From Flavobacteriales bacterium (lineage in GTDB: Bacteria; Bacteroidota; Bacteroidia; Flavobacteriales_F; PHOS-HE28): DNA of 64,000 nucleotides. The stretch lies in assembly GCA_030584065.1 (NCBI GenBank), contig CP129489.1:1388640-1452639 (forward strand), written 5' to 3'. The notes under the pieces were generated by a model. That model had not been told where the DNA came from, made no database searches, and saw only the letters and a list, made by a program, of their open reading frames with translations. Shown here piece after piece: positions 14,512-43,299 of this stretch (its first letter is position 1; each line of letters opens with the position of its first letter). The position numbers and the translations under genes are program-made.

Positions 14512-15996
14512 ATGCCCCGTCGCACGCCGCTCCTCCTGACCTTGTTGGTGGCCCTCGCCTTCGCGGTGCGCTTCCATGCCATCGACCGGTTCGCCACGGG
14601 ATACGACGAGCTGTTCTCCGCGCTGGAGGCCAATGGCCTGTTCCCGGCGCTGATCGGGCCTGGGACGGCCTTCACCGGAGCGGACCTCAGCGCCCATGAC
14701 AGCTGGCGGGGCGCGGCCCGGGCCTGCGTGGCCACCGATGGCGGCAACGGCATCCTCTACATCCTTGCCCTCCACGCCTGGACCGAAACCTTCGGGAACA
14801 GCAACCTCGCCATACGGCTGTTCTCGCTGTGCTGCGGACTGGTGGTGGTGCTCCTCACCCACCGGCTGGCCCTGGAGCTGAACGGCGATGGGACCGCCGC
14901 GCTGCTTGCCGCAGGCCTGGCCGCCATGGCGCCGCTGCTGGTCGATTACTCGCAGGAGGCGCGCGGCTATATGCTGGGGACGGCGCTCACCCTGGAGGCC
15001 ACGCGCCTCTACCTCCGCATCTCCCGCAGCGCGGATGCATCCGTCTCCGCCCTTGCGCGCTACGGCCTCGTCGCCGGCATGGCGCTGCTGGTGCACTACT
15101 ACGCCGCTTACATCCTGGTGGCGCATGCCGCACATGCCGTGCTCCGGCACGCGCCCCGGCGATGGCTGGGCTGGGGCGCGGTGGCCGTTCCCATAGCCGC
15201 AGCCTGCATGGGCGCCTGGATGCTGCTCGGCGGCTGGGAAGGCCTGGGCAACATGGCCCGTCACCAGGCGAGCTATGCGGCGCTGCTCGTGGCCAATCCG
15301 GAATACGATACCTATTACCGCGCAGCCACCCCGCTGCACCTGGCGCAGGAGCTCTTCGTCCAGTTCCTCTGGCTGAGCGGCAACAGCCTGCTCAACCTGG
15401 GTCCTTCGCTGCGGGTGGTGGCGCTGCTCCTGGCCGTTCCGGCAGGGCTGCTGGCAGGGCTGCGCTGGGCCGCAGCGAAGCAGGGCGATGGCGCGCTGCT
15501 CCTCGCCCTGCTCGCGATCGCCGGTCCGGCCTACACGCTCCTGCTCTCAGCCCTGTCCGGACACACTTTCGGGATGCGGTACTACTACGTGATGTTCTCC
15601 GCGCCGGCTGCGGTGATGCTGCTTGCGCGCGGGGCGCTCGGTTGGCTGCGCGCTGCCCGCGCCCCGCAGCGCCTCATGGGCGGTACGCTGCTCGCCTGCC
15701 TGGTGGCGGTGATGGCCCTTTCCATTTCCACCTTCTACCGCTACGGGTATCGCGGCAACAACCAGCCCGAACAGGTGGCCCCCCTGGCCCTGGCGGTGGA
15801 TGCGCTGGCCGCCGCTGCGCCCCATGCGCGAATCGGCCTTGTGCATGCGACGGACCGTGATGCCATCGCCTTCAACCTGCACCTGGGCCCTGATGCTGCC
15901 GGGGTGCCCCAGGTCATCGATGGCCTCTCCCCGCAACGGCATGCGGTGATCGCCACCCTTGGCGGTGAGCCGCGCGTGGTGCTCCGCCTGCGCTGA
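14512..15996 (+). CDS. GT-C-type membrane glycosyltransferase (ArnT/PMT-like)
   Basis: 494 aa with about ten or more membrane helices. The first helix (LLLTLLVALAFAVRF) is followed by a periplasmic loop carrying DRFATGYDELFSALEAN, with the acidic pair expected of lipid-phosphosugar-dependent GT-C enzymes. EARGYMLGTALTLEATRLYLR is typical of the GT39/GT83-like fold. It would transfer a sugar from a polyprenyl-phosphate donor on the periplasmic face. Start 14512 is preferred because the earlier ATG sits inside the -7 box. It falls within the surface-glycan block. Confidence 0.85.
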   Translation: MPRRTPLLLTLLVALAFAVRFHAIDRFATGYDELFSALEANGLFPALIGPGTAFTGADLSAHDSWRGAARACVATDGGNGILYILALHAWTETFGNSNLAIRLFSLCCGLVVVLLTHRLALELNGDGTAALLAAGLAAMAPLLVDYSQEARGYMLGTALTLEATRLYLRISRSADASVSALARYGLVAGMALLVHYYAAYILVAHAAHAVLRHAPRRWLGWGAVAVPIAAACMGAWMLLGGWEGLGNMARHQASYAALLVANPEYDTYYRAATPLHLAQELFVQFLWLSGNSLLNLGPSLRVVALLLAVPAGLLAGLRWAAAKQGDGALLLALLAIAGPAYTLLLSALSGHTFGMRYYYVMFSAPAAVMLLARGALGWLRAARAPQRLMGGTLLACLVAVMALSISTFYRYGYRGNNQPEQVAPLALAVDALAAAAPHARIGLVHATDRDAIAFNLHLGPDAAGVPQVIDGLSPQRHAVIATLGGEPRVVLRLR

Positions 15997-40565: not shown

Positions 40566-40603
40566 GGCCGCCGCCCCTGCGCCGCGCACATGCGCGAAAC
40601 GCC

Positions 40604-40611
40604 CATCTTCG
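40604..40611 (+). promoter_or_regulatory. Candidate -7 element CATCTTCG before the MFS gene
   Basis: CATCTTCG lies five bases before ATG 40617. It supports that start, because the earlier ATG at 40590 would be upstream of the box. The octamer also precedes accC and the 20928 hydrolase. Confidence 0.35.
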
Positions 40612-40616
40612 CAGGC

Positions 40617-41921
40617 ATGCCCGCCCGCACCTTCGACCGCCGCACGCTGCTGCTGGTCACTGTGGCCGCCCTGGGCTACTTCGTCGACATCTACGACCTC
40701 GTGCTCTTCAACGTGGTGAAGCGCGAGAGCCTCGAGTTCATCCTGGGCCCCGGCCACCCCGCCATCAAGGACCGCGGCATCGACCTCTTCAACATCCAGA
40801 TGCTGGGCATGCTGGTGGGCGGCGTGCTCTGGGGCGTGTGGGGCGACAAGAAGGGGCGCATCACCGTGCTCTTCGGCAGCATCCTCCTCTACTCCGCGGC
40901 CAACATCGCCAACGCCTTCACCTTCGACCTGGTGAGCTACGGCGCGGTGCGCTTCATCGCCGGCGTGGGCCTGGCCGGCGAACTGGGCGCGGGCATCACC
41001 CTCATCGCCGAGACCATGCCGCGCGAGCAGCGCGGCTGGGGCACCATGATCGTGGTCACCGTGGGCGCGCTGGGCGCCGTGGCCGCCAGCCTGGTGGGCG
41101 GCTATGGCGAGGGCATCAGCGCCTTCATCGCCTCCTTCACCGGCCACCGCTTGATGAACTGGCAGGTGGCCTACGTGGTGGGCGGCACCATGGGCCTGGC
41201 GCTGCTGGTGATGCGCATGGGCACCTTCGAGAGCGGCCTCTACCGCAGCGCTGAGCGGGCCGCCGTAGCACGCGGCAGCCTGCGCATGCTCTTCGGCGAT
41301 CGCACCCGCGCCCTGCGCTACCTGAAGACCATCCTCATCGGCGTGCCCATCTGGTACGTGATCGGCCTGCTGGTGAGCCTGAGCCAGGACGTGTTCGTGC
41401 CCGAGCTGGGCATCGACACCAGCGCGCTCGATGAGGCCGGCAATCAGCGCATCAACGGCACCGCCATCCGCTACGCCTATATCGGCCTGAGTCTCGGCGA
41501 CCTGCTGAGCGGGCTGCTGAGCCAATGGCAGCGCAGCCGCCGCAAGGTGATCATGCTCTACCTGGGCCTCAACCTCGCGCTCACGCTCTTCTTCCTCTTC
41601 GGCCTGCGCGGCGCCACCATCGCCACTTACAACTGGATGTGCCTGGGCCTGGGCATGGCCACGGGCTACTGGGTCATCTTCGCCACCGTGGCCAGCGAGC
41701 AGTTCGGCACCAACCTGCGCGGCACCGTGGCCATCACCGCGCCCAACTTCGTGCGCGCCAGCGTCTACCCCCTCACCACCCTCTTCCGCGCCCTGGTGCC
41801 CCCCGTGGGCAACCTCACCGCCGCCCTGCTGGTGGGCCTGCTCTGCATCGCCGGCGCCTTCTGGGCGGTGCGCCGCAGCAGCGAGACCTTCAGCAAGGAC
41901 CTGGATTTCGTGGAGGAGTGA
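40617..41921 (+). CDS. Major facilitator superfamily transporter
   Basis: 434 aa from ATG 40617 (443 from 40590). About twelve membrane helices. The MFS loop 2-3 motif appears as GVLWGVWGDKKGRITVLFG, and a helix-4 Arg is in YGAVRFIAGVGLAGELGAGITLIAE, the sugar-phosphate/metabolite transporter style. GYFVDIYDLVLFNVVKRESLEF opens the first helix. The substrate cannot be assigned. It is followed by the long minisatellite in a convergent intergenic region. Confidence 0.9.
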   Translation: MPARTFDRRTLLLVTVAALGYFVDIYDLVLFNVVKRESLEFILGPGHPAIKDRGIDLFNIQMLGMLVGGVLWGVWGDKKGRITVLFGSILLYSAANIANAFTFDLVSYGAVRFIAGVGLAGELGAGITLIAETMPREQRGWGTMIVVTVGALGAVAASLVGGYGEGISAFIASFTGHRLMNWQVAYVVGGTMGLALLVMRMGTFESGLYRSAERAAVARGSLRMLFGDRTRALRYLKTILIGVPIWYVIGLLVSLSQDVFVPELGIDTSALDEAGNQRINGTAIRYAYIGLSLGDLLSGLLSQWQRSRRKVIMLYLGLNLALTLFFLFGLRGATIATYNWMCLGLGMATGYWVIFATVASEQFGTNLRGTVAITAPNFVRASVYPLTTLFRALVPPVGNLTAALLVGLLCIAGAFWAVRRSSETFSKDLDFVEE

Positions 41922-42031
41922 GCGGGCGCCGGTGCCCCATGAAGCAGAGGTAGGGGGGCGCCACCCGACCGGGAACAGCGCCACTGATGGCCGCTGCCCG
42001 CGCCGGGCGTAATGCGGAGGCCGCTGCACGC

Positions 42032-42451
42032 GTGTCGATCGCCGCTGCGCAGGTGTCAACCGCCGATGCGCGCGTGTCGATCGGCGCTGCGCAGGTGTCA
42101 AAGGGCGCTGCGCGGGTGTCGATCGCCGTTGCACAGGTGTCAAAGGGCGCTGCGCGCGTGTCGATCGCCGCTGCGCGGGTGTCAACCGCCGCTGCGCGCG
42201 TGTCGATCGCCGCTGCGCGGGTGTCAACCGCCGCTGCGCGGGTGTCGATCGCCGTTGCGCAGGTGTCAAAGGGCGCTGCGCGGGTGTCGATCGGCGCTGC
42301 GCAGGTGTCAACCGCCGCTGCGCGGGTGTCGATCGCCGTTGCGCAGGTGTCAAAGGGCGCTGCGCGGGTGTCGATCGCCGCTGCGCAGGTGTCAAAGGGC
42401 GCTGCGCGGGTGTCGATCGCCGTTGCGCAAGTGTCAAGGACGCTGAAAGGG
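42032..42451. repeat. 21-bp tandem repeat (minisatellite) with 42-bp higher-order period
   Basis: Twenty contiguous 21-base units, nineteen well conserved and the last (42431-42451) decayed. Odd units start GTGTCGATCG, holding the palindrome CGATCG; even units start GTGTCAACCG or GTGTCAAAGG. All share a core such as CGCTGCGC. Because the two types alternate strictly, the true period is 42 bases, about ten copies. There are no spacers. It lies between the convergent MFS and FISUMP genes. It is open in several frames on both strands. In one plus frame it spells heptads such as VSIAAAQ, VSTAAAR and VSKGAAR, but unit differences fall mostly in codon position 2, which argues against selection for a protein. 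Confidence 0.95.
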
Positions 42452-42516: not shown

Positions 42517-43299
42517 CTAATCCCTCACGCAGCGCACGCAGCGGCCGGTCCTGAAATCATCCACCGTGCGCGAGATGGCTCCGTACTGGTAGTTCAGGAA
42601 CCGGTAATAGGCGCCTGCTGTCGGGTTCGGCTCCCAGGGCGTGGCGCTCCACCAGCTGCCCATGTAGCCCATTGCCATGAAGGCCCCGTCCTCATCCTCG
42701 CGGACGCCCGTGGCATAGGCGGCAAAGCAGACCTCGTCGGTGGCCCCGGTGTTGGGCGCTAGCCAGAGGGTGGCGGCCTTCAATTTGCCGCCTACGTTCT
42801 GTGCACCGCCGCGCGAGGCATTGAAAAGGTCCACCTCACTGGCAGGCATGCCCAGGGTGGTCTCCAGCTGCTTCCATTCCGCATCGGTAGGCAGGTGCCA
42901 GCCCGCGGGGCAGAGGTCGGGTGCGGCGGCGGCGTACCAGTTGTAGAGCTTGCCGTACAGGGTATCGTTGGCGGGATCATTGAGGTAGTTGCACCAGGCA
43001 CCCGTGGCGAGGGCGCTCCACGCCGCGCTGTCCGTCACGTTCGGGACAGGGCTTCCATCGCGGTAGCGCGTGGTGCGGAGGTTCGCGGCCATCCATTGCT
43101 GGCTGCCGATGGTGACCACGGGGTACACGTTGCCATCGATGTCGGTGACGGTGCCGGTGGCCTGGCAGCCGGTGGGCGTGCTGGAGCCATTGCCGCCGCC
43201 CGCAGCCGGTGTCTCCTCGTTGTCCTTCTTGCATGCGATGAGGAGCAAGAGGCTCAAGGCTCCGAGTAAGGCCGGTGCGGATGTCATGTGACGCATCAT
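42517..43299 (-). CDS. FISUMP-domain lipoprotein
   Basis: 260 aa. Start ATG 43299, with internal Met at 43296 and 43287; the 43287 start gives the cleanest lipoprotein signal (MTSAPALLGALSLLLLIAC). The mature protein is a single Fibrobacter-succinogenes-paralog (FISUMP) domain: VTDIDGNVYPVVTIGSQQWMAANL, YLNDPANDTLYGKLYNWYAA, LCPAGWHLPTDAEWKQLE, and the Cys-rich end GRCVRCVRD. The domain has a C-type lectin-like/sulfatase-modifying fold. Many secreted Bacteroidota proteins carry it; its ligand is unknown. The gene ends just past the minisatellite. Confidence 0.88.
   Translation of the reverse strand: MMRHMTSAPALLGALSLLLLIACKKDNEETPAAGGGNGSSTPTGCQATGTVTDIDGNVYPVVTIGSQQWMAANLRTTRYRDGSPVPNVTDSAAWSALATGAWCNYLNDPANDTLYGKLYNWYAAAAPDLCPAGWHLPTDAEWKQLETTLGMPASEVDLFNASRGGAQNVGGKLKAATLWLAPNTGATDEVCFAAYATGVREDEDGAFMAMGYMGSWWSATPWEPNPTAGAYYRFLNYQYGAISRTVDDFRTGRCVRCVRD

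Follow-up and report, generated by a model that had tools for sequence, protein, structure and literature searches.

A non-coding 21-bp direct-repeat array in a Flavobacteriales genome and its possible place in a class of gene-linked 21/22-bp arrays

Bacterial tandem repeats are generally regarded as neutral markers. A spacer-free array of 21-bp direct repeats in the genome of a Flavobacteriales bacterium (GCA_030584065.1, contig CP129489.1, a single contig of 3.92 Mb) raises the question of whether this view is adequate, or whether the array belongs to a larger assemblage with a function. The window analysed here is the 64,000-nucleotide stretch at positions 1,388,640 to 1,452,639 of that contig, and the features of the locus are given in window coordinates (Table 1).

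Architecture and turnover of the window array

With head-to-tail units that TRF and the unit listing place at 21 and 42 bp, the window array (array 1) lies within the range of 10-100 bp by which minisatellites or VNTRs are defined. TRF calls a period of 42 with 10.2 copies, 89% matches and a score of 639, and additionally a period of 126. The two unit types, GTGTCGATCGCCGCTGCGCRG and GTGTCAA(CCGCC|AGGGC)GCTGCGCRG, alternate in 19 of 19 steps (p ~2e-5 by permutation), and the self-identity of the array is 0.75 at a lag of 21, 0.88 at 42 and 0.90 at 126. The original prediction, made from the letters alone, had recognised this strict alternation and had placed the array between the 3' ends of two convergent genes; both statements hold, the genes being those for an MFS transporter on the plus strand and a Fib_succ_major (FISUMP) lipoprotein on the minus strand. 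Its coordinates (42032-42451) need a small correction and its count of 20 units needs revision: the spacer-free tandem array is real, and it comprises 19 full units with degenerate edges. The accompanying proposal of growth in 42-bp pairs is supported, a hidden dimer period of this kind recurs in many unrelated arrays (see below), and the array may have expanded by 126-bp blocks as well. Neither palindromes nor dyads were found within 300 bp on either side of the array.

Table 1. Features of the window array and its flanking genes, in window coordinates
Feature	Position	Strand	Basis
Window array, 21-bp direct repeats with hidden 42-bp period	42018..42445	+	TRF, unit listing, alternation and lag identities
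Nineteen full-length 21-bp units	42032..42430	+	Unit listing from sequence
Degenerate edge unit (AATGCGGAGGCCGCTGCACGC)	42011..42031	+	Unit listing
Terminal partial (20th) unit; GTGTCAAG matches, rest diverges	42431..42451	+	Unit listing
MFS transporter gene, 3' end flanks the array	40590..41921	+	ORF; PF07690 6e-18
Fib_succ_major (FISUMP) domain lipoprotein gene, 3' end flanks the array	42517..43299	-	ORF; PF09603 1e-43

A conspecific MAG, Flavobacteriales bacterium UBA2426, is spread over 260 contigs, and copy numbers from it are provisional. It carries the array at the same site, with flanks that are 99% identical and an array that is only ~90% identical, which bears out the predicted hypervariability, the copy number coming from this one fragmented MAG. 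The alternation of unit types is broken in the UBA2426 copy, which shows that the species as a whole does not keep to it strictly; moreover, one unit of that copy carries an in-frame TAG (plus frame) and another is 22 bp long. Taken together, the broken alternation, the TAG and the 22-bp unit establish that the window array is a non-coding, fast-turning-over array of direct repeats. The window array is itself open in several reading frames. A coding repeat, the reading that the original prediction had set against its own, is rejected, since the 22-bp unit shifts all frames of the UBA2426 copy and the TAG interrupts the plus frame. A more general coding role fails on this frameshifting unit and stop, on a TAG in the sister array described below, and on the 22-bp sister arrays, which are non-coding. 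Gene order near the MFS gene varies within the genus, and among the relatives no clean empty site was found at which conserved flanks might be seen lacking the array.

A sister array and a gene-linked class

A search for the unit in the genome and in relatives, as had been suggested with the prediction, recovered one further array (array 2) at 2068217-2068795 of the same genome (L017 4217-4795). The unit is thus represented by two arrays in this genome, and neither of them is present in the 43 further genomes of the genus that we examined. The sister array contains 27.6 copies at 79% identity; the consensus units of the two arrays are identical at 19 of 21 positions, and a GACAC core is invariant across all units compared in both arrays of this genome. 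Both arrays are present in both strains. The palindrome CGATCG, in which the prediction had seen a potential key to protein binding, is confined to the window array, and its absence from a sister array of the same unit argues against such a role. The sister array is situated between a type ISP restriction-modification gene and the gene for a 228-aa all-helical protein, here called MNKQQ (2067210-2067893), lying 322 bp upstream of the latter. Its units differ mostly at the third positions of an RPLTPAQ frame (65 differences synonymous and 25 not, the UBA2426 copy included).

We surveyed half of the same genome (2.06 Mb) for tandem arrays. Setting aside one dinucleotide run, a 7-bp repeat in a long open frame and long repeats in large genes, arrays of at least 10 units were confined to arrays 1 and 2, an array of 21-bp units with a hidden 42-bp period (L099) and an array of 22-bp units (L088). 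The L099 and L088 arrays are unrelated in sequence, and each lies upstream of a gene for a ~206-aa protein with an FN3 domain, just as the L017 array lies upstream of the gene for the 228-aa helical protein. In 2.0 Mb of this genome all 21/22-bp arrays of at least 10 copies outside the window stand beside FN3 or MNKQQ genes. Conversely, all four FN3 paralogs (~206 aa) of the genome have an upstream 21/22-bp array of 17-20 copies, and the sequences of these arrays are unrelated to one another. The 22-bp array that precedes the FN3 gene is split in UBA2426 into two blocks (9 and 17 copies; L204 508-711 and 847-1228), as against one block of 18 here. The arrays of L088, L099 and L017 adjoin restriction-modification, HNH or NO VEIN C-terminal (PDC-S36-like) genes, and the modules may accordingly sit in variable islands.

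The linkage extends well beyond this genome. With loci oriented by gene and TRF applied to up to 1.5 kb on either side, an array was recovered upstream of 26 of the 33 FN3 loci of the genus and downstream of none (Fisher p 5e-12). Among MNKQQ loci the counts are 9/19 upstream and 1/19 downstream; among FN3 loci of other Bacteroidia families, several of which are truncated upstream, they are 13/21 and 1/21. About one-fifth of the FN3 genes of the genus and half of the MNKQQ genes have no array called by TRF, some of these cases arising from contig ends. The 559 kb of control DNA yielded no array of this type other than a borderline 67-bp repeat. The distance from array to gene is ~140-500 bp, most often 210-380 bp, and this interval is enriched in palindromes (31 across 46 loci against 8.3 expected), of a kind that the flanks of the window array lack. 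Between a 22-bp array and its FN3 gene, paired palindromes TATGCCATATGGCATA occur ~60 bp apart (L201 ~1316-1400, L088 ~15580-15660), with different palindromes at the corresponding place in other loci.

Across these loci, the unit has a locked length, 21 or 22 bp depending on the clade of the protein, and a free sequence. One FN3 clade is associated with arrays of 22-bp units, or their multiples of 44 and 66, in each of its 16 labelled rows; the remaining FN3 genes and the MNKQQ genes are associated with 21-bp units (42, 63, 84), with few exceptions (43 in L215, 64 in L236, and slightly under 21 in L256 and L258). On the maximum-likelihood tree the 22-bp label requires a single change, at a node with 100/100 support, as against 12 changes in shuffles. 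Hidden periods of 42/44 and 63/66 recur among the arrays, some of which have an exact period of 44 or 66 bp even though their 22-bp parts match one another at just 0.34-0.5. The linkage of period and clade could partly reflect vertical descent of gene and array together, in the absence of functional coupling. Nevertheless, a length that stays fixed through loss of sequence and turnover of arrays is not easily explained by descent alone.

The FN3 family was found in 37 and the MNKQQ family in 29 of 296 Bacteroidia genomes, and both in 23, against 3.6 expected if both counts are taken as one draw of 296 genomes and relatedness is ignored. Neither family has a match in PADLOC, NCBIfam or Pfam, save for the FN3 domain in Pfam, and no DNA-binding domain was recognised in either. 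In profile searches of the PDB, the FN3 domain returned FN3-fold matches only and the helical family coiled-coil noise; a single-sequence structure model of the MNKQQ protein is unreliable (pLDDT 43). The possibility that the FN3 family came from phages or plasmids was considered and set aside, as searches of viral-contig, plasmid and phage collections gave no match; the MNKQQ protein likewise has none in viral contigs.

The window array itself resembles this class in its 21-bp unit and 19 full copies, the class being defined by units of 21 or 22 bp in ~10-28 copies. It departs from the class in not lying upstream of an FN3-type or MNKQQ-type gene, the position that the sister array does occupy with respect to its MNKQQ-type gene. 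Its neighbours are the 3' ends of the MFS and FISUMP genes, the FISUMP lipoprotein gene belonging to neither array-linked family, and we therefore call it an orphan.

Comparison with described repeat systems

The direct repeats of plasmid iterons and partition centromeres span about two helical turns, stand beside a small-protein gene and are bound cooperatively. The class discussed here shares with them both the repeat spacing and the adjoining small-protein gene. It differs in being chromosomal, with several unrelated arrays per genome and up to 27 copies, and no replication initiator or partition ATPase was recognised among the array-neighbour genes scanned.

The nearest described element is BrickBuilt of Porphyromonas gingivalis (PMC4596501), which like the window array is spacer-free, intergenic, found in Bacteroidota, and built of units whose length (23 nt) is close to two helical turns. 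Elements of this MITE type are defined by a leader and tail with small inverted-repeat ends (PMC4596501). The 19 copies of BrickBuilt share one sequence and have a leader, a tail and inverted ends, whereas in our class each locus has its own sequence and the arrays are linked upstream to specific genes; in the 300-bp flanks of the window array, moreover, no palindromes were found. TIGR/Tas systems come close in a different way, having an array beside a small-protein gene, an alternating two-part unit, and a sequence that varies between loci while the architecture is kept (PMC12045711). TIGR arrays consist of two 8-12-nt repeats with variable 9-nt spacers between them, give 36-nt RNAs and are associated with a Nop-domain protein (PMC12045711), in contrast to the class, which has no variable spacers, has 21/22-bp units and is linked to FN3 or all-helical proteins with no Nop match. 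For the window array we reject an assignment to TIGR: its unit variants are common to many copies rather than being unique spacers, and no Nop match was obtained among its flanking genes or the proteins linked to the sister arrays. CRISPR is rejected in the same way, in agreement with the original prediction, the units having no unique spacers between them. The tandem repeats of Borgs are likewise many unrelated short arrays per genome, fast evolving and partly intergenic (PMC9879509); their unit lengths vary and their copies are perfect (PMC9879509), whereas the class has imperfect copies locked at 21/22 bp and linked to genes.

In the open-access literature we found no description of 21/22-bp arrays linked to FN3 genes, and the class is apparently undescribed. 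The original prediction had known of no described element with this unit. For the literature searched this stands; the unit is nevertheless not solitary, recurring as it does at 2.068 Mb in an array of the class.

Proposed cooperative binding and its alternatives

The window array may well be an orphan member of the class that normally lies upstream of the gene for an FN3 (~206 aa) or MNKQQ (228-aa) protein, its repeats serving as cooperative binding sites. We place it there because its period, copy number and hidden dimer resemble those of the class and one of the gene-linked arrays has the same unit. We infer that, as the likeliest mechanism, the cognate small protein binds cooperatively with a phasing of two helical turns. 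The repeats would form stacked sites two turns apart, presenting identical faces to the protein, which would oligomerise cooperatively upon them in an operator-like or centromere-like fashion. The free sequence of the unit would then suggest either that sequence counts for less than spacing or that the array sequence evolves together with the protein. Growth and turnover of the arrays would come about through unequal recombination or slippage, in blocks of several units. Given that the window array has neither an adjoining gene of the class nor flanking palindromes, its function, if any, is exercised in trans or has been lost: it might be a copy occupied in trans by the MNKQQ protein of the 2.068-Mb locus or, alternatively, the relic of a lost module. 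In its broadest form, which we advance tentatively, the proposal is of a two-part module of Bacteroidia, in which a length-locked, sequence-free array of ~20 repeats (21/22 bp, often hidden dimers or trimers) is paired with a small protein, FN3-domain or all-helical, in co-evolution with the unit length; the window array would then be a trans site.

For the window array taken alone, the main rival is a neutral, functionless minisatellite (VNTR), generated by slippage and unequal exchange and descended from a copied fragment of array 2. This account is plausible, if somewhat doubtful. It accords with a site that tolerates insertions, flanked as it is by the 3' ends of convergent genes, with the confinement of the array to this species, and with degenerate edge units, block-wise homogenisation and sequence variation between strains; the frameshifted unit and broken alternation in UBA2426 are also what it would lead one to expect. 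It sits less easily with an exact period of 21 and a hidden dimer that match those of the gene-linked class, with a GACAC core that is invariant throughout arrays 1 and 2 of this genome, and with the presence of both arrays in both strains. The original prediction had also offered a structured RNA. In a general form of this idea, which we consider unlikely, the arrays would be transcribed into repetitive structured RNAs, guide-like or decoy, bound by the linked small protein. Several gene-linked arrays do fold better than their unit-shuffled counterparts (mean z of -1.0 sense and -1.5 antisense over 42 arrays); many others show no excess, there is no Rfam match, and the linked proteins contain no recognised RNA-binding domain or nuclease. 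The window array gives z of -0.3/+0.5 against unit-shuffled arrays and belongs to no Rfam family, which for this locus tells against the predicted structured RNA.

A MITE-like mobile minisatellite comparable to BrickBuilt is similarly improbable. The window-array unit does occur at two distant sites, and BrickBuilt too is a spacer-free tandem array of 23-nt units, intergenic and from Bacteroidota (PMC4596501); against this, the flanks of the window array have no palindromes, the genome has two arrays of this unit as opposed to 19 copies of BrickBuilt, and the other arrays are of unrelated sequence. The proximity of dnaN, 4 kb from the window array, and a local change of GC skew near 41-42 kb might suggest an origin, terminus or partition site of the chromosome. 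We regard this as very improbable indeed, as the genome-scale skew switches at ~2.95-3.0 Mb and between 0.8 and 1.2 Mb, away from the array, dnaA is at 1.53 Mb, and a search of the window found no cluster of DnaA boxes.

Should the cooperative-binding reading be correct, the conservation of unit length across families in which sequence is not conserved, together with the tie to two unstudied protein families, would constitute a new protein-DNA (or RNA) partnership, in which each protein would be expected to recognise how the units of its own array are spaced and perhaps their sequence as well. The window array alone is of modest interest, and gains more as an entry to this length-locked, gene-linked class.

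Repeats of other lengths were also encountered near genes of these types. In a relative, tandem 52/67-bp repeats with CCCCGAAGGG hairpins precede an MFS gene (L027 167-559). Directly downstream of one FN3 gene is a 229-bp tandem repeat of 4.9 copies with 93% matches (L201 2246-3375), and downstream of another, in a relative, are 24.8 copies of a 39-bp repeat (L212 293-1318).
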